From assembly GCF_900113045.1 (NCBI RefSeq), contig NZ_FONY01000021.1, positions 1 through 64,000 of the forward strand: a stretch of 64,000 bases of DNA. Direction: 5' to 3'. Shown in pieces: positions 12,979 to 23,858 of the stretch; positions within the stretch are counted from its first letter, which is position 1; each line of letters starts with the position of its first letter. This stretch comes from Thermoflexibacter ruber. GTDB lineage: Bacteria > Bacteroidota > Bacteroidia > Cytophagales > Thermoflexibacteraceae. The notes beneath the pieces were generated by a model. The model made no database searches. It saw nothing but the letters and a program-made list of their open reading frames with translations, and was not told the DNA's origin. The position numbers were made by a program, and so were the translations under genes.

Positions 12979-14124
12979 TTAATAAGCTACCTCAGTTTTC
13001 ATGCTTTTAGCCAATACTTTTTCATAGACAGCCTCGTACATAGGTCTAATTTTATCCAACTCAAAGTCTTTGGCTCTGGCAAGAGCATTTTCTCTAAAGC
13101 GAGGTAAGTTATTGTCATCTAAGATGATGAGCGCATTTTTTACCATGTCTTCTATATCTCCTACATTGCTCAAAAACCCTGTAACACCTTGCACGTTCAA
13201 TTCAGGCAACCCTCCTGTATTAGTAGAAATCACGGGCACTTCGCAAGCCATCGCCTCCAAAGCCGCCAAGCCAAAACTCTCTTTCTCAGAAGGCATAATG
13301 AATAAGTCAGCTACAGAAAGTACCTCCTCAATAGCTTCCAATTTTCCTAAAAATCGTACATCGTCCAAAAGATTATGCTCTTGACAGAAAACTTCTGCTT
13401 TGCGTCTTTCGGGACCGTCGCCTATCATAAGCAATTTGGCGGGAATTTCTTTACTCAATTTACAAAAAACGCTCAGTATATCGTCTATCCGTTTTACTTT
13501 TCTAAAATTGGAAGTATGCACTATGATTTTTTCTCCATTAGGGCTGATTGCCTTTTTGAAATGGTCTTTTTTCTGTTTTTTGAAACGCCTCAAATCTATA
13601 AAGTTAGGGATTACATCTATTTCTTGGGTAACAGCAAAATGTTCGTAAGTATCTTGCTTGAGGCTTTTAGATACTGTCGTTACGCCGTCAGATTGGTTGA
13701 TGCTAAATGTAACTACAGGCTCGTAGCTTTCATCTTTGCCTACCAAAGTGATGTCAGTTCCGTGCAAAGTCGTAACTACAGGAATATAAATACCTTCTGT
13801 TTTTAGAATTTGCTTAGCCATATAAGCTGCTGAGGCATGAGGAATGGCATAGTGAACGTGTAGCAGGTCTAACTGTTCGTATTTGACTACATTGACCATC
13901 TTGCTTGCCAAAGCAAGTTCGTAAGGCGGATATTCAAATAGTGGATAGGTACGAATATCTACTTTGTGATAGTAGAGATTGGGGCTAAAAAAGTCTAAGC
14001 GAGTAGGCTGGTCGTAGGTAATGAAGTGAATTTCATGCCCTTGCTCTGCCAATGCCTTGCCAAGCTCGGTAGCTACTACGCCACTCCCGCCAAAAGTAGG
14101 ATAACAAACAATGCCTATTTTCAT
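12979..14124 (-). CDS. bshA: N-acetyl-alpha-D-glucosaminyl L-malate synthase
   Basis: 381 aa from the ATG at 14124, just before the typical start MKIGIVCYPTFGGSGVVATELG; the longer frame to 14217 adds a non-conserved stretch. This is a GT4 glycosyltransferase with the BshA N-terminal signature, HVHYAIPHASAAYMAKQIL, the LHGTDIT donor/acceptor loop, and the C-terminal EX7E motif in PSEKESFGLAALEAMA. It transfers GlcNAc from UDP-GlcNAc to L-malate, the first step of bacillithiol synthesis, so the organism uses bacillithiol as a low-molecular-weight thiol. BshB and BshC are not in this window. Confidence 0.93.
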   Translation of the reverse strand: MKIGIVCYPTFGGSGVVATELGKALAEQGHEIHFITYDQPTRLDFFSPNLYYHKVDIRTYPLFEYPPYELALASKMVNVVKYEQLDLLHVHYAIPHASAAYMAKQILKTEGIYIPVVTTLHGTDITLVGKDESYEPVVTFSINQSDGVTTVSKSLKQDTYEHFAVTQEIDVIPNFIDLRRFKKQKKDHFKKAISPNGEKIIVHTSNFRKVKRIDDILSVFCKLSKEIPAKLLMIGDGPERRKAEVFCQEHNLLDDVRFLGKLEAIEEVLSVADLFIMPSEKESFGLAALEAMACEVPVISTNTGGLPELNVQGVTGFLSNVGDIEDMVKNALIILDDNNLPRFRENALARAKDFELDKIRPMYEAVYEKVLAKSMKTEVAY

Positions 14125-14270
14125 TTTTTTTAGGATATTGGATATGAAAAAATTATCAGATTTTACGTAAAAAAATGTATCAAAATTTCTATCATTACGT
14201 ATAACAATAAAAGTCAAATTAATTCACAGAAAAACTAAAAATTTAAACAAAATTTAATCCTTAGTGTATC

Positions 14271-14562: not shown

Positions 14563-15459
14563 ATGAATATTAAAGTATGGCTAAGTGCTTTCCGACTTCG
14601 TACCTTGCCTTTGGCACTGTCTTCTATTTTCATGGGAAGTTTTTTAGCTGCTGCACATGGAAGATTTGAACTAAGTATTTTTATTCTGGCAGTACTAACT
14701 ACTATTTTCCTTCAAATATTGTCTAATTTGGCAAATGACTATGGGGACTCGGTGCATGGAGCAGATCATTCAGAAAGACTGGGACCGAAGCGTGCTGTTC
14801 AGACGGGGAAAATCTCTCCCCAAGCTATGAAAAAAGCTATTTACATTTTTATTGGCTTAGCTTTACTCAGCGGGCTGAGTCTAATTTGGACGGCTTTCAA
14901 AGACAACTTATCTCTTTTCTTTATATTTTTGGGATTAGGCATAGCCGCTATTATAGCCGCTATTACTTATACAGCAGGAAAAAAACCTTATGGATATGCA
15001 GGGCTGGGCGATATTTCTGTGCTGATATTTTTTGGTTGGGTGGGAGTAATAGGCACTTATTTTCTTTACACACATCATTTTGGCGTTTGGATACTCTTAC
15101 CTGCTACAAGTTGCGGGCTTTTTGCCGTAGGTGTACTGAATATCAACAATATCAGAGATATTACCTCAGACAAAAAAGCAGGAAAGCTATCTATTCCTGT
15201 CAGACTTGGGAGAGAAAAAGCTGTCTATTATCATTGGGCATTGCTGTCGGTGGGTTTTTCTTGTGCGATTATATTTACTGCTTTGAACTATTACAGTAAC
15301 TATCAATGGCTTTTTCTTATTACTGCCCCACTTTTCCTTATTAATGCAAGAGCTGTCAAGCTGTATGAAGAACCTGCTCGCCTTGACCCTTACCTTAAAC
15401 AAATGGCATTAAGTACCTTGCAATTTGTCATTATGTTTGGTGTAGGTCTTTTGCTCTAA
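14563..15459 (+). CDS. menA: 1,4-dihydroxy-2-naphthoate polyprenyltransferase
   Basis: 298 aa, UbiA-superfamily integral membrane protein with about eight helices. The first prenyl-diphosphate motif is in NLANDYGDSVHGADHSERLG (~55-74), followed by KRAVQTGKIS, and the second Asp-rich motif is in NNIRDITSDKKAGK. These features match MenA, which joins a polyprenyl tail to 1,4-dihydroxy-2-naphthoate in menaquinone synthesis. The next gene begins 8 bp downstream, suggesting an operon with the VKGC-like gene. Confidence 0.93.
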   Translation: MNIKVWLSAFRLRTLPLALSSIFMGSFLAAAHGRFELSIFILAVLTTIFLQILSNLANDYGDSVHGADHSERLGPKRAVQTGKISPQAMKKAIYIFIGLALLSGLSLIWTAFKDNLSLFFIFLGLGIAAIIAAITYTAGKKPYGYAGLGDISVLIFFGWVGVIGTYFLYTHHFGVWILLPATSCGLFAVGVLNINNIRDITSDKKAGKLSIPVRLGREKAVYYHWALLSVGFSCAIIFTALNYYSNYQWLFLITAPLFLINARAVKLYEEPARLDPYLKQMALSTLQFVIMFGVGLLL

Positions 15460-15467
15460 ACGAAAAG

Positions 15468-16853
15468 ATGAAGTGGCTGTTTGCTCCTGTTTCTCCTGTC
15501 CCTTTAGCAATATTTCGCATTGGATTCGGCACGTTGATGCTTCTAAGCACCATTCGCTTTTGGCTAAAGGGCTGGATTGAAGAACTTTACATCAAGCCTA
15601 AGTTTTATTTTGCCTATTATGGATTTGAATGGGTAAAGCCCCTGCCTGCTTATGGCATGTATGTATTATTCTTTTTAGTGGGCTTGTCTGCCTTGCTGAT
15701 AGCTTTGGGCTTTTTCTATCGCATTTCAACCGTCGTATTTTTTTCTTCTTTTACCTACATCGAATTGATAGATAAAACCAACTATCTGAATCACTATTAT
15801 TTGATAAGCCTGTTGAGTTTTTTATTAGTTTTCCTTCCTGCTCATTGCCGCTTCTCGGTAGATGCTTGGCGTAGCCAAAAAGTTTACAGGAAAGAAATAC
15901 CTTCTATCTATTTGATAACTATTCAATTGCAGTTAGTTATTACTTATTTTTTTGCAGGAGTTGCTAAAATACATGCTGACTGGCTCTTAGAGGCTCTGCC
16001 TCTAAAAATATGGTTATCAGTAAAAACGGATTTGCCCGTTGCAGGGTGGTTTTTGCAGTTTCCTGAAACAGCCTATATATTTTCTTGGGCTGGAATGTTT
16101 TTTGACCTTTCTATTGGCTTTTTGCTATGGTGGAAAAAAGTACGAAGGGTTGCGTATCTCTTTGTGCTTATTTTTCATGTACTTACAGCTATTCTTTTCC
16201 CTCAAATAGGTCTATTCCCTTATATCATGATAGTCAGTACTTTAATTTTTTTCTCAGAAAAAGATTGGCAGTCCTTAGCCAAAAAGATTAATGAACTTCT
16301 TTTTTTTCATTCATCTTTTCAGAATAGAAGCTATCAACCAAATATAAATAAAGAGCAAAGATTAGAAACTACCTCGCTACAGCCATCACATTTTTTAGTG
16401 CAATACAAAGTTCTCAAAACTATTTTGTTTCTTCTTTATTTTGCGGTTCAGCTATTTTTGCCTTTTCGCTATTTGCTGTATCCCAATGATTTGTTTTGGA
16501 CAGAAGAGGGTTTCAGATTCTCTTGGCGGGTCATGCTGATAGAAAAGACAGGGATTGCTTTTTTTACTGTTAAAGACGCTATATTAGGGAAAAGCATAAA
16601 AATCAATAACCAAGGCTACCTCACCCCTTTGCAGGAAAAAATGATGAGTACCCAACCTGACATGATACTCCAATTCGCTCATTTTTTGGCAAATACTTAT
16701 CAACAAAAAGGTTTGCGAGAACCAGAGGTCTTTGTAGAGAGTTATGTTTCTCTCAATGGACGAAGTAGCCAACTTTTTATTAATCCTCACACAAACTTGG
16801 CAAAAGAAAGGGAAAGTTTTGCTCCTAAGCACTGGATTTTAGTTAAAAAATAG
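15468..16853 (+). CDS. HTTM/vitamin K-dependent gamma-carboxylase-like membrane protein
   Basis: 461 aa with several membrane segments. The segment DKTNYLNHYYLISLLSFLLVFLPAH (~102-126) parallels the NHxYL region of the vertebrate enzyme, and YFFAGVAKIHADWL (~160-173) contains a Lys (167) in the AGxxK-x-x-ADW context of the catalytic Lys of gamma-glutamyl carboxylase. This is the HTTM domain family; the bacterial homologues lack a proven substrate. It lies 8 bp behind menA, which makes the precursor of the quinone cofactor that such an enzyme would need in reduced form. A link is inference. The C-terminal ~170 residues are less conserved. Confidence 0.85.
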   Translation: MKWLFAPVSPVPLAIFRIGFGTLMLLSTIRFWLKGWIEELYIKPKFYFAYYGFEWVKPLPAYGMYVLFFLVGLSALLIALGFFYRISTVVFFSSFTYIELIDKTNYLNHYYLISLLSFLLVFLPAHCRFSVDAWRSQKVYRKEIPSIYLITIQLQLVITYFFAGVAKIHADWLLEALPLKIWLSVKTDLPVAGWFLQFPETAYIFSWAGMFFDLSIGFLLWWKKVRRVAYLFVLIFHVLTAILFPQIGLFPYIMIVSTLIFFSEKDWQSLAKKINELLFFHSSFQNRSYQPNINKEQRLETTSLQPSHFLVQYKVLKTILFLLYFAVQLFLPFRYLLYPNDLFWTEEGFRFSWRVMLIEKTGIAFFTVKDAILGKSIKINNQGYLTPLQEKMMSTQPDMILQFAHFLANTYQQKGLREPEVFVESYVSLNGRSSQLFINPHTNLAKERESFAPKHWILVKK

Positions 16854-19828: not shown

Positions 19829-20401
19829 ATGCAAGCTACTGATTCCACAATTATTACTGCTATCCAAAAAGGTGATGAGCGAGCTTTTGAAAAGATTTTT
19901 CGCGAGTATTATGAAAAACTTTGCCATTATGCCTATTCCTTCCTTAGAGATATGGACGAAGCGGAGGAGATGGTGCAGGGCATTTTTCATTACTATTGGG
20001 AGAAGCGGGAAAGTCTGGAAATTACGACTTCTCTCAAATCGTACCTCTACAAGATGGTGTATAATCGCTGTCTGAATGTGAAAAAACACGAAAAGGTAAA
20101 AGCAGAACACCAAAAGCATACGATGGTGGATTTTCGTCAAAGTCCCAGCTATGCTTCTGACGTAGCAGAAAGACAGGAACTTGAAAAACAAATAGATAAG
20201 GCAATAGAAAGTCTGCCAGAGCAGTGCCGCCTCATCTTCAAAATGAGTCGCTTTGAAGAACTGAAGTACAGCGAAATAGCCGAACACTTGGGCATTTCGC
20301 CTAAAACAGTGGAGAATCAGATGGGAAAGGCTTTAAAGCTGCTAAGACAACAGTTGATTGAGTATTTGACGATTGCGCTCTGGGTAGTTATGAATGTATA
20401 A
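19829..20401 (+). CDS. ECF-type RNA polymerase sigma-70 factor
   Basis: 190 aa. Region 2 is at ~20-85 (FEKIFREYYEKLCHYAYSFLRDMDEAEEMVQGIFHYYWEKRE) and region 4 at ~120-175 (ALESLPEQCRLIFKMSRFEELKYSEIAEHLGISPKTVENQMGKALKLL in substance). This is the Bacteroidota ECF group paired with FecR-type anti-sigma factors. The FecR gene lies 454 bp downstream with a STN protein after it, so it probably answers an extracellular or surface signal passed through FecR. ATG 19829 precedes the conserved TIITAIQKGDERAFE start. Confidence 0.93.
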   Translation: MQATDSTIITAIQKGDERAFEKIFREYYEKLCHYAYSFLRDMDEAEEMVQGIFHYYWEKRESLEITTSLKSYLYKMVYNRCLNVKKHEKVKAEHQKHTMVDFRQSPSYASDVAERQELEKQIDKAIESLPEQCRLIFKMSRFEELKYSEIAEHLGISPKTVENQMGKALKLLRQQLIEYLTIALWVVMNV

Positions 20402-20854
20402 TTAGGAATCTGGAATGAATACAAATTATAAATGATGAATTATAAATTATTGTTTTTTAATAAGTTATAAACTAATCAAAGTTCCAGAGGGATGACAGCT
20501 TTGTAGAAATTAAGGTTGTAACATTTTGATTAAAGTCCCAGAGGGACGAAACCTATTTTGACCATTCCCTTTTGCTATGCACGTGATAACACGTGTAGAG
20601 TGGGAATAGATAATATTTTATGTGAAAACACATGAAATACAAATAATTATGATATATGTATTTCTTGTTTTTAAATCGCTCTTGTTTTAAAGGTATGATT
20701 CGATCTAATATGGACTGCGGTAACAGTGGCTTTAATTTTGAATTATTAGCCAAATGATTTGATGACAGCAAGTTTTAAAAATATAACAAAAAATATTGTT
20801 AGTGAACAATTAGCAATATTCTAACTCTCAACCTTTTAAATTTACTTTTAACCA
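20402..20854. other. Intergenic region between sigma and FecR genes
   Basis: This 453-bp AT-rich gap has no coding frame. It holds two diverged copies of a short motif, GTTCCAGAGGGATGA near 20481 and GTCCCAGAGGGACGA near 20535, which recall a dispersed intergenic repeat, and the palindromic CACGTGATAACACGTG near 20580-20596. Such a gap is unusual in a sigma/FecR pair and suggests FecR has its own promoter. Confidence 0.5.
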
Positions 20855-21844
20855 TTGGAAAAACAGACACCCATAGTAAATGACGACCTGATTGCCAAGT
20901 TTTTGGCGGGAGAGGCAGATAATACCGAAAGCGAGGCGGTGAATGACTGGATTTTGGAATCAGAAAAGAACGAAAATTACTTTTTTGAGGCTCAAAAGAC
21001 GTGGGAGAAAGCAAGTAGGAGCAGGAACTTCCGAAAGGTTAATACTGATGCCGCATGGCAGAAGTGGCAAAGCAAAGAGGCAAAAGTGGTGCAGCTAAAA
21101 CCTAAGCGAACTGCTGTACCTTTCATGCAAATTGCCGCCGCAGTAGTGCTTTTGCTTGGGGTAAGTACAATTTGGTATTTAGTTACTAAGCAAAATATTG
21201 AGCAAGTAGCTTTTGTTACCAAAGAAAAGGTAGATTCGCTTTTGTTGGCTGACGGTACGCAGGTTTTTGTAAATAGAGAAAGTAAGATTACCTATCCCAA
21301 AGAGTTTTCTGGGAAAAAGCGTAGGGTAAAGTTGGAAGGAGAAGCCTTCTTCCAAGTCCAATCTGATAAAGAAAAGCCTTTTGTGGTAGAAACACAAAGT
21401 ACTGAAATTCAAGTAGTAGGTACAGCTTTTAATGTAAAATCTACCTTTGCTCTCCAAAGGACAGAAGTAGTTGTTCAGGAAGGAAAAGTATTGGTCAGAA
21501 GCGGCAAAGATAGCCTTTATCTGAACGCAGGAGAGCAGGTTACAGTAGAAAAAGATAAGATTCAAAGAAAAGAAAGCATACAAGATAAAAATTTTCTTGC
21601 TTACAAAACACGCTTATTAGTTTTTGAGAAAACAAGTTTAAATGAGGTAATCGCAAAGATTAATGCCTTGTATGCTACAGAGATAATTTTAAAAAATAAG
21701 GCATTAGGAAACTGCCCCATCACAGTTACTTTTGATGATGCAAGTATAGAAGAAATCATAGATATTATTACACAAACGCATCAGGGCTTGCGGGTAAGCA
21801 AGGAAGGAAAGCGTTTTGTTTTTGAAGGAGAGCGGTGTGAGTAA
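20855..21844 (+). CDS. FecR-family anti-sigma/sensor protein
   Basis: 329 aa; the only in-frame start before the conserved N-terminus is TTG 20855, because a stop codon lies at 20849-20851. The N-terminal cytoplasmic anti-sigma part (LIAKFLAGEADNTESEAVNDWI) is followed by one membrane helix (~89-110), then the FecR domain (~118-215, with LLADGTQVFVNRESKITYPKEF and EGEAFFQV) and a C-terminal DUF4974-type domain (~255-325). It would hold the ECF sigma factor inactive and relay a periplasmic signal. The STN protein follows. Confidence 0.9.
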   Translation: MEKQTPIVNDDLIAKFLAGEADNTESEAVNDWILESEKNENYFFEAQKTWEKASRSRNFRKVNTDAAWQKWQSKEAKVVQLKPKRTAVPFMQIAAAVVLLLGVSTIWYLVTKQNIEQVAFVTKEKVDSLLLADGTQVFVNRESKITYPKEFSGKKRRVKLEGEAFFQVQSDKEKPFVVETQSTEIQVVGTAFNVKSTFALQRTEVVVQEGKVLVRSGKDSLYLNAGEQVTVEKDKIQRKESIQDKNFLAYKTRLLVFEKTSLNEVIAKINALYATEIILKNKALGNCPITVTFDDASIEEIIDIITQTHQGLRVSKEGKRFVFEGERCE

Positions 21845-21965
21845 ATGTTTTTGGCTATATGAGTAGGCTTTCTAATTGGTTTTTATAGATTTGCAAGAAT
21901 TTGCATATCTTCCTCACTTAACTTACGCCTTTTTAGCTGTGAGAACTCTTTACGATGCGATAAAA

Positions 21966-23858
21966 ATGTTCAGACTTTATATTGTTATCTTGCTATTATT
22001 TTTTTGTTTTCTATCACCATCCAATACCTTTGCCCAAACTTCTATTTTAGAAAAAAATATTTCTTTGGAAGTTCGTAATGAGCCTATTAGCGAGGTACTT
22101 AAAAAGATTTCCCAACAAGGTAACTTTATTTTTTCTTATAATCCATCAGTCATAGAAGTAAGTAAGACTGTTTCGTTCTCAGCAAACGCAAAGACCATCA
22201 GGGAGGTTTTGCAGCTTATTTTCCAAGAAAAAGTAAGGTACAAGGAAAAAGGAAAATATTTGATTTTGCAAAGAGCAGAAGAAGATGAAAATAGCAAATA
22301 TTTCTTTATCTCTGGCTACGTGCTTGACTACCAAACAGGGAAAAAACTTGCCCAAGCCAGTGTATATGAGCCTCTTACTTTTGCCTCAGCGGTAAGTAAT
22401 GAGTATGGTTATTATCAAATCAAGTTATTAAGCAAGCAAACACAAGTTACCATAAAGGCAGTAAAACAAGACTATCAAGAGCAAGATTTGGTAGTAGAAA
22501 CGAAAAAAAATCAAAACCTCAACATCATTCTTTCGCCCCAAACCACCAATGCTATCCAAGTAGCTGAAATTCGTAAGCAAGATAGCCTTACGATAAGGCA
22601 AGCAAACCCCAACCTACCCGATTCTATTGTAATCCAAATGGTAGAGATTAAGCAAAAAGAAAGAGAATCTTTGGCAGCACGCTTAAAGTCTTCATTATCC
22701 AACTTTCTTACTTCTGCCAACCAGAAAATTAATGCTCTTAATATCAAAAATGTGTTGAGCAAAGAGTGGCAGGTGGGTTTAGTACCTTACCTAAGCACCA
22801 ATCAGTTGATGGGAAATACAGAAGTGGGCTTTTCTCTGAACCTAATTGCAGGTAATAATGCGGGGGTAAAAAAAGCAGAACTGGGCGGTGTAGTTAATAT
22901 AGTGGGGAATAACGTTGAGGGGGTGCAGGTGGCAGGCGTACTCAATCTGGTAGGAAAACAAGTAAAAGGCGTACAGATAGCAGGTACGGGTAATATCGTA
23001 GGTGGAGAGGTTGGCTATATCCAAGCGGGAGGACTATTCAACATTAATAAAGGCAGCATGACAGGAGCGCAGATAAGTGGCTTATTTAACTTGAATGCAA
23101 AATCGCAGATTGGTTTTCAGGCGGCAGGCTTATTCAATTCCAATGGGAAAGAAATAGGCGAAGGCATACAAGTGGCAGGTTTGTCCAACTTCCAATTTGG
23201 AAGATATGAAGGTGTCCAAATCAGTGGCTTGCTTAACTTTGTATCTGGCGAGTTTGAGGGTGTGCAAATAAGTGGGCTTGTGAACTATGCCAAAAAAGTA
23301 AGTACGGGTGCTCAGATTGGTGTTTTTAACTATGCTGATTCTGTGGGTACTTTGATTCCTATTGGTTTGTTTAGCTATATCCGCAGAGGAGGCTATCACC
23401 CCTTAGAGTTCTCTGTCAATGAGATGGAATTTACCAATCTTACTTTTAAAACAGGAGTTAGAAAATTTTATACCATACTCACAGTAGGAATGCAACCGCA
23501 CCAAGTAGCCAAACGCTTGTGGCACTTTGGTTATGGCGTAGGCACTTACTGGACTCTGAACAATAGCTTGGCGGTCAATTTGGATTTGACAGTGCATCAA
23601 ATTAACCAAGATAGCTTTAGCCGATATGTGAACCTGCTTAATAGGGCAAGCCTTGCTCTGGAAGTGCGAGGCAGGTGGCTTGGGTTTGCTATTGGTCCTG
23701 CTTGGAATCTTTTGATTACAGATACAAGCAACCCTAATTATCAAACTATATTTGATGACTTTCCTCAATTTTCGCTTGGCAAAAACGAAACTGTAAATTC
23801 AGGATTTAGGGTAAGGTCTTGGGTAGGGTTGCAGGCGGCAGTAAGAATGGGGAAGTGA
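21966..23858 (+). CDS. STN-domain surface protein with repetitive beta-helix-like region
   Basis: 630 aa from ATG 21966, which starts a signal peptide (LYIVILLLFFCFLSPSNTFAQ). An STN (secretin/TonB N-terminal) domain (~30-105: LEVRNEPISEVLKKISQQGNF) follows, then a carboxypeptidase-regulatory-like domain (~115-190: ISGYVLDYQTGKKLAQASVYEP). The central part (~290-470) has about ten repeats of ~20 aa with the pattern GVQVAGVLNLVG / GAQISGLFNL, like LA_2272-type surface repeats. The C-terminal part is beta-rich, perhaps a barrel. It is the expected outer-membrane partner of the sigma/FecR pair but is not a TonB receptor. Confidence 0.85.
   Translation: MFRLYIVILLLFFCFLSPSNTFAQTSILEKNISLEVRNEPISEVLKKISQQGNFIFSYNPSVIEVSKTVSFSANAKTIREVLQLIFQEKVRYKEKGKYLILQRAEEDENSKYFFISGYVLDYQTGKKLAQASVYEPLTFASAVSNEYGYYQIKLLSKQTQVTIKAVKQDYQEQDLVVETKKNQNLNIILSPQTTNAIQVAEIRKQDSLTIRQANPNLPDSIVIQMVEIKQKERESLAARLKSSLSNFLTSANQKINALNIKNVLSKEWQVGLVPYLSTNQLMGNTEVGFSLNLIAGNNAGVKKAELGGVVNIVGNNVEGVQVAGVLNLVGKQVKGVQIAGTGNIVGGEVGYIQAGGLFNINKGSMTGAQISGLFNLNAKSQIGFQAAGLFNSNGKEIGEGIQVAGLSNFQFGRYEGVQISGLLNFVSGEFEGVQISGLVNYAKKVSTGAQIGVFNYADSVGTLIPIGLFSYIRRGGYHPLEFSVNEMEFTNLTFKTGVRKFYTILTVGMQPHQVAKRLWHFGYGVGTYWTLNNSLAVNLDLTVHQINQDSFSRYVNLLNRASLALEVRGRWLGFAIGPAWNLLITDTSNPNYQTIFDDFPQFSLGKNETVNSGFRVRSWVGLQAAVRMGK

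Follow-up and report, generated by a model that had tools for sequence, protein, structure and literature searches.

A vitamin K-dependent gamma-carboxylase homologue beside menA in Thermoflexibacter ruber and the imelysin operons of its relatives

The menA-VKGC locus and the catalytic core

The stretch of DNA analysed, hereafter called the window, comprises the first 64,000 nucleotides of contig NZ_FONY01000021.1 of Thermoflexibacter ruber (assembly GCF_900113045.1). It contains a gene for a homologue of the vitamin K-dependent gamma-carboxylase (VKGC), which lies 8 bp behind menA on the same strand, as the original prediction had placed it (Table 1). The predicted protein combines an HTTM domain (PF05090, E 4.9e-79, model positions 1-259 of 259) with a VKGC lumenal domain (PF22777, model positions 4-148 of 152), and the alignment with human GGCX (E ~6e-45) covered residues 4-448. 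Comparison at this level confirmed a likeness to the GGCX family far above chance, to which the lumenal domain adds beyond the motifs recognised originally; since that domain is present, a bare HTTM or SdpB-like protein was ruled out. By analogy with human GGCX, from which the side of the membrane was taken, the lumenal domain is presumably periplasmic here. No other HTTM match was found in the whole genome of T. ruber. In most relatives the VKGC gene stands in an operon with a gene for an iron-uptake imelysin lipoprotein, which is proposed below as the probable natural partner of the enzyme rather than MenA.

Both motifs of the original prediction were found, NHxYL as NHYYL, in which H109 corresponds to human H160, and AGxxK-x-x-ADW as AGVAKIHADW, in which K167 corresponds to human K218. 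The active-site residues of the human enzyme were taken from the relevant part of a cryo-EM study (PMC12589487), which assigns N159 and H160 to the Glu pocket, K218 to the role of base and W223, F286, F294 and F299 to the quinone pocket, and were mapped through the alignment of GGCX with the window protein. The equivalents of these seven residues and of P378 were invariant in 41/41 homologues and in 120/120 of a wider set (118 distinct sequences); the window protein has N108, H109, K167 and W172 at human N159, H160, K218 and W223. Loss of His109 or Lys167 in most relatives would have spoken against the prediction, and both residues are retained throughout, which also rules out a degenerate VKGC.

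Conservation does not extend to other features of the vertebrate enzyme. Among the 120 homologues it was lacking at the disulfide cysteines C99 and C450, at the propeptide residue Y425 and at R436, the window protein having F48 and F406 at the two cysteines and I379 at Y425, and K217 was replaced by Ala in 105/120. The position of Y395 is occupied by Tyr in 80/120 and by Phe in 33/120, including the window. The core required for the chemistry thus appears to be kept, and the substrate-docking features of the vertebrate enzyme not. The predicted model of the window protein (predicted local distance difference test score, pLDDT, 92.8) spans human GGCX residues 51-506, and its best match in the PDB was GGCX (9wfc, Z 33.3, root-mean-square deviation 3.0, 428 residues aligned), compared with Z 9.0 for the best non-GGCX chain.

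An enzyme that epoxidises or oxidises menaquinol without carboxylating a protein, whether quinol oxidase-like or with a redox role in iron reduction, would also fit the invariant Phe and Trp of the quinone pocket and the lack of conservation at Y425, C99, C450, R436 and K217, as well as the usual absence of vitamin K epoxide reductase (VKOR) from the genomes. A study of the Leptospira homologue reportedly suggested a role other than protein carboxylation. For the proteins considered here we regard such an enzyme as unlikely, because the Glu pocket is as invariant as the quinone pocket, because Tyr is kept at Y395 in two thirds of the homologues (80/120), and because epoxidation by human GGCX, as stated in the pertinent passage of PMC9146348, needs Glu.

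The menA assignment was supported by curated MenA models (NF004750, 405.7 bits with a cut-off of 346; TIGR00751, 308.9 bits with a cut-off of 102.15). Since the gene 5' of menA (12979-14217) lies on the opposite strand, menA and the VKGC gene probably form a two-gene unit; the next gene, separated from it by a gap, encodes a diacylglycerol kinase. Promoter- and terminator-like patterns around the two genes did not exceed those in shuffled sequence by a clear margin. A FecIR-like signalling set, with consecutive genes for an extracytoplasmic function (ECF) sigma factor, a FecR-type anti-sigma factor and an STN-domain protein, lies 3 kb from the VKGC gene (window 19829-23858).

Table 1 Features of the menA-VKGC locus (window positions)
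Feature	Position	Strand	Basis
menA, 1,4-dihydroxy-2-naphthoate polyprenyltransferase, 298 aa	14563-15459	+	NF004750, TIGR00751, UbiA PF01040
menA as leading gene of the probable unit with VKGC	14563-15459	+	
Intergenic gap of 8 bp from the menA stop to the start of VKGC	15460-15467	+	Computed from the sequence
VKGC homologue (HTTM and VKGC lumenal domain), 461 aa	15468-16853	+	PF05090, PF22777, match to human GGCX, model
HTTM transmembrane domain, residues 5-267, with quinone and Glu pockets	15480-16268	+	PF05090
Codons of N108-H109 (human N159-H160)	15789-15794	+	GGCX alignment; invariant 120/120
Codon of K167 (human active-site base K218)	15966-15968	+	GGCX alignment; invariant 120/120
VKGC lumenal domain, residues 316-459	16413-16844	+	PF22777, E 2.4e-54

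Neighbours of menA and of the VKGC genes

Gene neighbourhoods were compared in two sets of loci, with open reading frames (ORFs) taken from a simple longest-ORF caller. The relatives' sample comprised 59 genomes, T. ruber included, of which 37 had a VKGC match; apart from T. ruber, 35/36 VKGC genomes contributed a total of 40 loci, leaving outside the set G053 and further pieces, among them G038:C90 and G002:C215. The named-genome set consisted of the best 80 of at least 571 relatives, from which L134 was dropped since it had no VKGC ORF, giving 79 loci, mostly from Bacteroidota with some Rhodothermota, Balneolota and Chlorobiota records; being the best-scoring relatives, these loci lean towards operon copies. 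The VKGCs of L110 and L152 are identical to those of L032 and L038, and one Algoriphagus strain contributed two loci (L089 and L112), so that the 120 VKGCs and the 90 upstream regions scored below include some repeats.

The original prediction had looked to conservation of the menA-VKGC pair across Bacteroidota, and this was not borne out. MenA was absent from all 119 other VKGC loci (40 and 79), of which L104 lacked an upstream ORF, and L047, L052 and L155 reached the end of the contig without a downstream one. MenA was present in 11/12 genomes of the family, in none of which a VKGC gene lay within about 1.5 kb of it, and the neighbours of menA varied between these genomes. The pair is private to T. 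ruber as far as sampled, and a conserved pair was ruled out.

The 8-bp spacing on one strand could nevertheless reflect a meaningful unit in T. ruber itself, in which the cofactor-making gene is co-expressed with a menaquinol-consuming VKGC, perhaps as the epoxide is not recycled. VKOR (PF07884) was not found in the T. ruber genome, in a search whose control gave matches in 3/14, so the epoxide could need replacement by new synthesis. We consider such a unit quite improbable, in view of the 119 VKGC loci lacking MenA, the 11/11 menA genes of the family lacking an adjacent VKGC and the changing neighbours of menA; moreover, 28/37 VKGC genomes lacked VKOR, yet pairing of VKGC with menA was unseen in those examined. 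A vitamin K cycle with VKOR had no clear link to VKGC either, VKOR being found in 9/37 VKGC genomes vs 1/22 VKGC-less ones (Fisher 0.07). The proposal of a quinol-dependent carboxylase or epoxidase is still the best chemical reading of the protein, with the residues for quinol epoxidation and the Glu pocket intact, whereas the argument that had been drawn for it from the adjacency of menA is unsupported.

Random neighbours in other genomes, which would have counted against the original prediction, are indeed what the menA pair shows, but not the VKGC genes overall, most of which lie in an operon of the order DUF4856 - imelysin - VKGC - TonB receptor with a Fur-box match. Among the 40 relatives' loci an imelysin gene was found one or two ORFs upstream of VKGC in 24, a TonB receptor gene 3' of it in 19 and DUF4856 in 17. 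In the named set imelysin was directly upstream in 74/79 and the TonB receptor directly downstream in 76/79, with DUF4856 present in 72/79. Sites were scored against the Riemerella Fur-box consensus (19 positions, threshold 15/19), and matches of at least 15/19 occurred upstream of DUF4856 in 73/90 regions vs 2.4 in shuffles (10 rounds, non-overlapping dinucleotides moved), or in 72/87 without repeat genomes. What is apparently the same operon type is seen in Riemerella RNA-seq data: Table 4 of PMC5609570 lists as putatively Fur-regulated the consecutively tagged genes for a TonB-dependent receptor, a vitamin K-dependent gamma-carboxylase, an imelysin and a hypothetical protein, with -Fe/+Fe ratios of 2.11, 2.64, 3.07 and 2.41, respectively.

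The T. ruber copy departs from this arrangement, its neighbours being menA and the diacylglycerol kinase gene, with neither imelysin upstream nor TonB receptor downstream. The Fur-box pattern gave 47 matches in the T. ruber genome on both strands, where a palindromic site can count twice, vs 8 for the reversed pattern. Ten ORFs 3' of matches encoded three TonB receptors (Plug domain), HemS, SufE, SufBD, an ABC ATPase, a hydrogenase subunit and two proteins without family. Given these matches and the genes downstream of them, the pattern appears to represent a genuine Fur box in this genome. No match was found on the contig of the window with up to 3 mismatches allowed, the best being 12/19 upstream of menA and 12/19 upstream of VKGC. 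The genome has two imelysin genes, both apart from VKGC; the typical one (C73, 22104-23258) starts only a few bases 3' of a Fur-box match, and the other is described below. In the VKGC tree the T. ruber protein fell in a branch of 68 rows with 64 operon copies (Shimodaira-Hasegawa-like approximate likelihood ratio test, SH-aLRT, 89), apart from the copy of the same-genus genome G002. Its placement suggests that the gene derives from an operon copy which lost its setting, by relocation rather than by new acquisition.

Some loci differ from the common arrangement in other ways. In family f26 a second VKGC subfamily, with the N, H, K and W residues retained, lies directly 3' of a ribF-like gene in 6/6 loci (L233, L234, L235, L237, L238 and L239) with gaps of -8 to 0 bp; Pfam identified the L233 copy of the ribF-like gene as FAD synthetase/riboflavin kinase, and the other five were assigned from their similar length and N-terminus. 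In three f26 genomes (G158, G173 and G189) no tailed imelysin, as defined below, was found. Operons of DUF4856, tailed imelysin and TonB receptor without VKGC occur at L182 (G027) and L181 (G022); the sole VKGC found in either genome is distant and lies at another site. A VKGC homologue of 33 % identity over nearly its full length is carried by a Paracoccus albus plasmid (L173:5941-7332), where no imelysin is annotated up to 6 kb from it.

The tailed imelysin and its co-occurrence with VKGC

In terms of the classification given in PMC3143127, as far as the sections used describe it, the imelysins linked to VKGC are similar to the IPPA/PA4372 kind, and in alignment with the IPPA structure 3pf0 their profile extends to its final residue. 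In place of the His of the GxHxxE motif they have Pro in 14/24, Leu in 8/24 and Gly in 2/24. All 24 operon imelysins of the relatives end exactly in Asp-Gly-Asp (DGD). The same holds for 73/74 of the named set, all but an ORF of 289 aa. Typical imelysins nearby are without DGD, and extra copies of the same type at L117, L120 and L138 end in it. The lipoprotein Cys was present in 100/100 and 12/12 imelysins of this type. The tail is probably flexible: a modelled operon imelysin is predicted to be unstructured after residue 348, with pLDDT values of 66 and 45 at the end, and residues 384-389 are given as disordered in the IPPA crystal in the corresponding part of PMC3143127.

In the 59 genomes of the relatives' sample, a tailed imelysin was found in 35/37 VKGC-positive vs 1/22 VKGC-negative genomes (Fisher 1e-12), the single VKGC-negative genome with one being G001, which is 62 % complete. 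The 35 consist of 24 in the operon, 10 elsewhere in the genome and that of T. ruber, so 11/35 are unlinked; the T. ruber protein (G000, C55:241524-242585) ends in FTDADGD, and the best Fur-box match upstream of its gene was 11/19. In this search 12/12 imelysins matching through the end of the profile ended in DGD, and a weak 18-bit match without tail in G018 was scored negative.

A phylum sample of 148 genomes (completeness at least 90 %) was examined likewise, VKGC being defined as a match of at least 249 bits, with six genomes of 20-42 bits counted as VKGC-negative. A tail-reaching imelysin was found in 32/36 VKGC-positive vs 0/112 VKGC-negative genomes (Fisher 2e-28; neither Fisher value takes account of shared ancestry). 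All 32 end in DGD, and 30/32 adjoin VKGC by coordinates, the exceptions being G000 and G163. Five VKGC-negative genomes of the sample carry a related imelysin, with DGD in 0/5. When positions at least 92 % conserved in 100 tailed imelysins were compared with these five, the DG of the tail was missing in all five, and P45, N212, G228, G232, K342 and D344 also differed in most of them. At L226 and L227, from VKGC-less genomes, a tailless imelysin gene adjoins a heme oxygenase-like gene (Pfam on the L226 copy) and a di-haem oxidoreductase gene.

Proposed function and comparison with known systems

The reading we prefer, to which we assign a probability of roughly 0.6, is that the T. ruber protein is a VKGC member with an intact active site, the natural partner of which is an iron-uptake imelysin lipoprotein rather than MenA. 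We infer catalytic activity with menaquinol as the cofactor and the imelysin as the substrate. By analogy with GGCX, K167 would deprotonate menaquinol, and addition of O2 would lead to the epoxide and a strong base. A periplasmic protein would lose a proton from one of its acidic side chains to this base, and the side chain could then be carboxylated by CO2 or otherwise activated. Judging from the genomic associations, the acidic residue may lie on the periplasmic imelysin-type lipoprotein (IPPA/PA4372-like) with its flexible C-terminal Asp-Gly-Asp. In T. ruber the enzyme would act from a gene outside the operon, behind menA and without a Fur box, the tailed imelysin having been kept on another contig.

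Placement of the modified residue in the DGD tail is speculative, as is iron binding by the product. In its specific form the proposal is that VKGC carboxylates the tail, giving beta-carboxyaspartate, or a nearby Glu of the imelysin, and that the resulting malonate-like Fe(III) ligand is handed to or from the TonB-receptor system; this we put forward tentatively, as possible and open to considerable doubt. If true, carboxylation of an Fe(III) ligand would be the bacterial counterpart of Gla modification, with iron in place of calcium.

Alternatively, the target of VKGC could be the DUF4856 lipoprotein or the TonB receptor, the imelysin tail having some other use such as receptor docking. Both genes recur in the named-genome loci (DUF4856 72/79, TonB receptor 76/79), and proteobacterial imelysins are tailed without a VKGC neighbour. 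Nevertheless, T. ruber gave no DUF4856 match (the control of that search was silent), yet it has VKGC and a tailed imelysin, and in five genomes (G002, G005, G032, G037 and G047) neither a DUF4856 nor a TonB-receptor gene was recognised within about 1.5 kb of the tailed imelysin. Tracking with VKGC across genomes was seen for the tailed imelysin, DUF4856 and the receptor having been examined in the T. ruber genome only. We judge this alternative to be rather unlikely.

Several observations weigh against the imelysin as partner, or against parts of that reading. The tailed imelysin was missing from 2/37 VKGC genomes of the relatives' sample (G038 and G053, both with distant VKGCs) and was not found in 4/36 of the phylum sample (G158, G173, G178 and G189). 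Because the search profile was built from the 24 operon imelysins, independent evidence comes only from the unlinked genomes, the VKGC-less genomes and the phylum sample. The VKGC tree is a quick tree in which the branches nearer the window are weak, the tailed imelysins of the window's genus are altered at some otherwise near-invariant residues, and an extra imelysin copy of the same type beside operon L111 stops just before DGD. According to the data given for the genes in PMC5609570, the Riemerella fur mutant keeps the iron response of VKGC (2.77) and derepression is weak (1.39); Fur is therefore not the sole control there.

Other observations concern the tail itself as the target. DGD ends also occur in the Psychrobacter imelysin 3pf0 and in imelysins of a P. 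aeruginosa and a Sulfitobacter plasmid, and on both plasmids it is DUF1513, not VKGC, that lies 3' of the tailed imelysin. The known substrate residue of GGCX is Glu, whereas the invariant tail residue is Asp. The tail may therefore be a docking or iron-binding element that merely accompanies VKGC; as a mark specific to VKGC it is weakened by the proteobacterial tails, and it is kept as a candidate only. In the two proteobacterial loci (L242:7911-10078 and L243:4136-10071) DUF1513 sits in the position that VKGC has in Bacteroidota and may be a functional stand-in.

Bacterial homologues of VKGC are already known (Pfam). The Leptospira homologue, the subject of work by Rishavy et al. (2005), is said to be a bacterial homologue with altered activity. 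The words 'carboxylase', 'HTTM' and 'vitamin K' were not found in the two papers searched for the Leptospira gene context, which do mention imelysins. No discussion of a link between VKGC and imelysin was found among the matches listed for open-licence PubMed Central, a scope which excludes most subscription papers and bioRxiv. Among those matches the Riemerella table (PMC5609570) is the one co-mention of the VKGC and imelysin genes as a set, and in the matching passages of PMC7709123 'imelysin' and 'vitamin K' occur in unrelated places. The operon, the Fur-box matches and the co-occurrence point to one partner protein and one three-residue tail. If the modification exists, it would connect bacterial iron uptake with vitamin K-dependent carboxylation and would bear on the origin of the animal clotting enzyme.

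The window protein shares with human GGCX the two domains, the fold, the catalytic Lys, His, Asn and Trp and the quinone-pocket Phe. It differs in being prokaryotic, in its length (461 vs 758 aa) and in the lack of conservation at Y425, the C99-C450 pair, K217 and R436, and whereas the human enzyme acts on a propeptide-bearing substrate, none is known for the window protein. Riemerella RAYM_09784, named 'vitamin K-dependent gamma-carboxylase' in Table 4 of PMC5609570, apparently belongs to the same operon type, judging from this name and from the imelysin and TonB-receptor genes listed next to it; it is part of an iron-responsive set, unlike the window copy, which lies beside menA without a Fur box. 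The proteobacterial operons of the IPPA/PA4372 type, as outlined in part of PMC3143127, have in common with the Bacteroidota loci a gene for a DGD-tailed imelysin, which lies 3' of a di-haem oxidoreductase or cytochrome c gene (two plasmids), but differ in that the tailed imelysin is followed by DUF1513, its place being taken by VKGC in most of the Bacteroidota loci examined.

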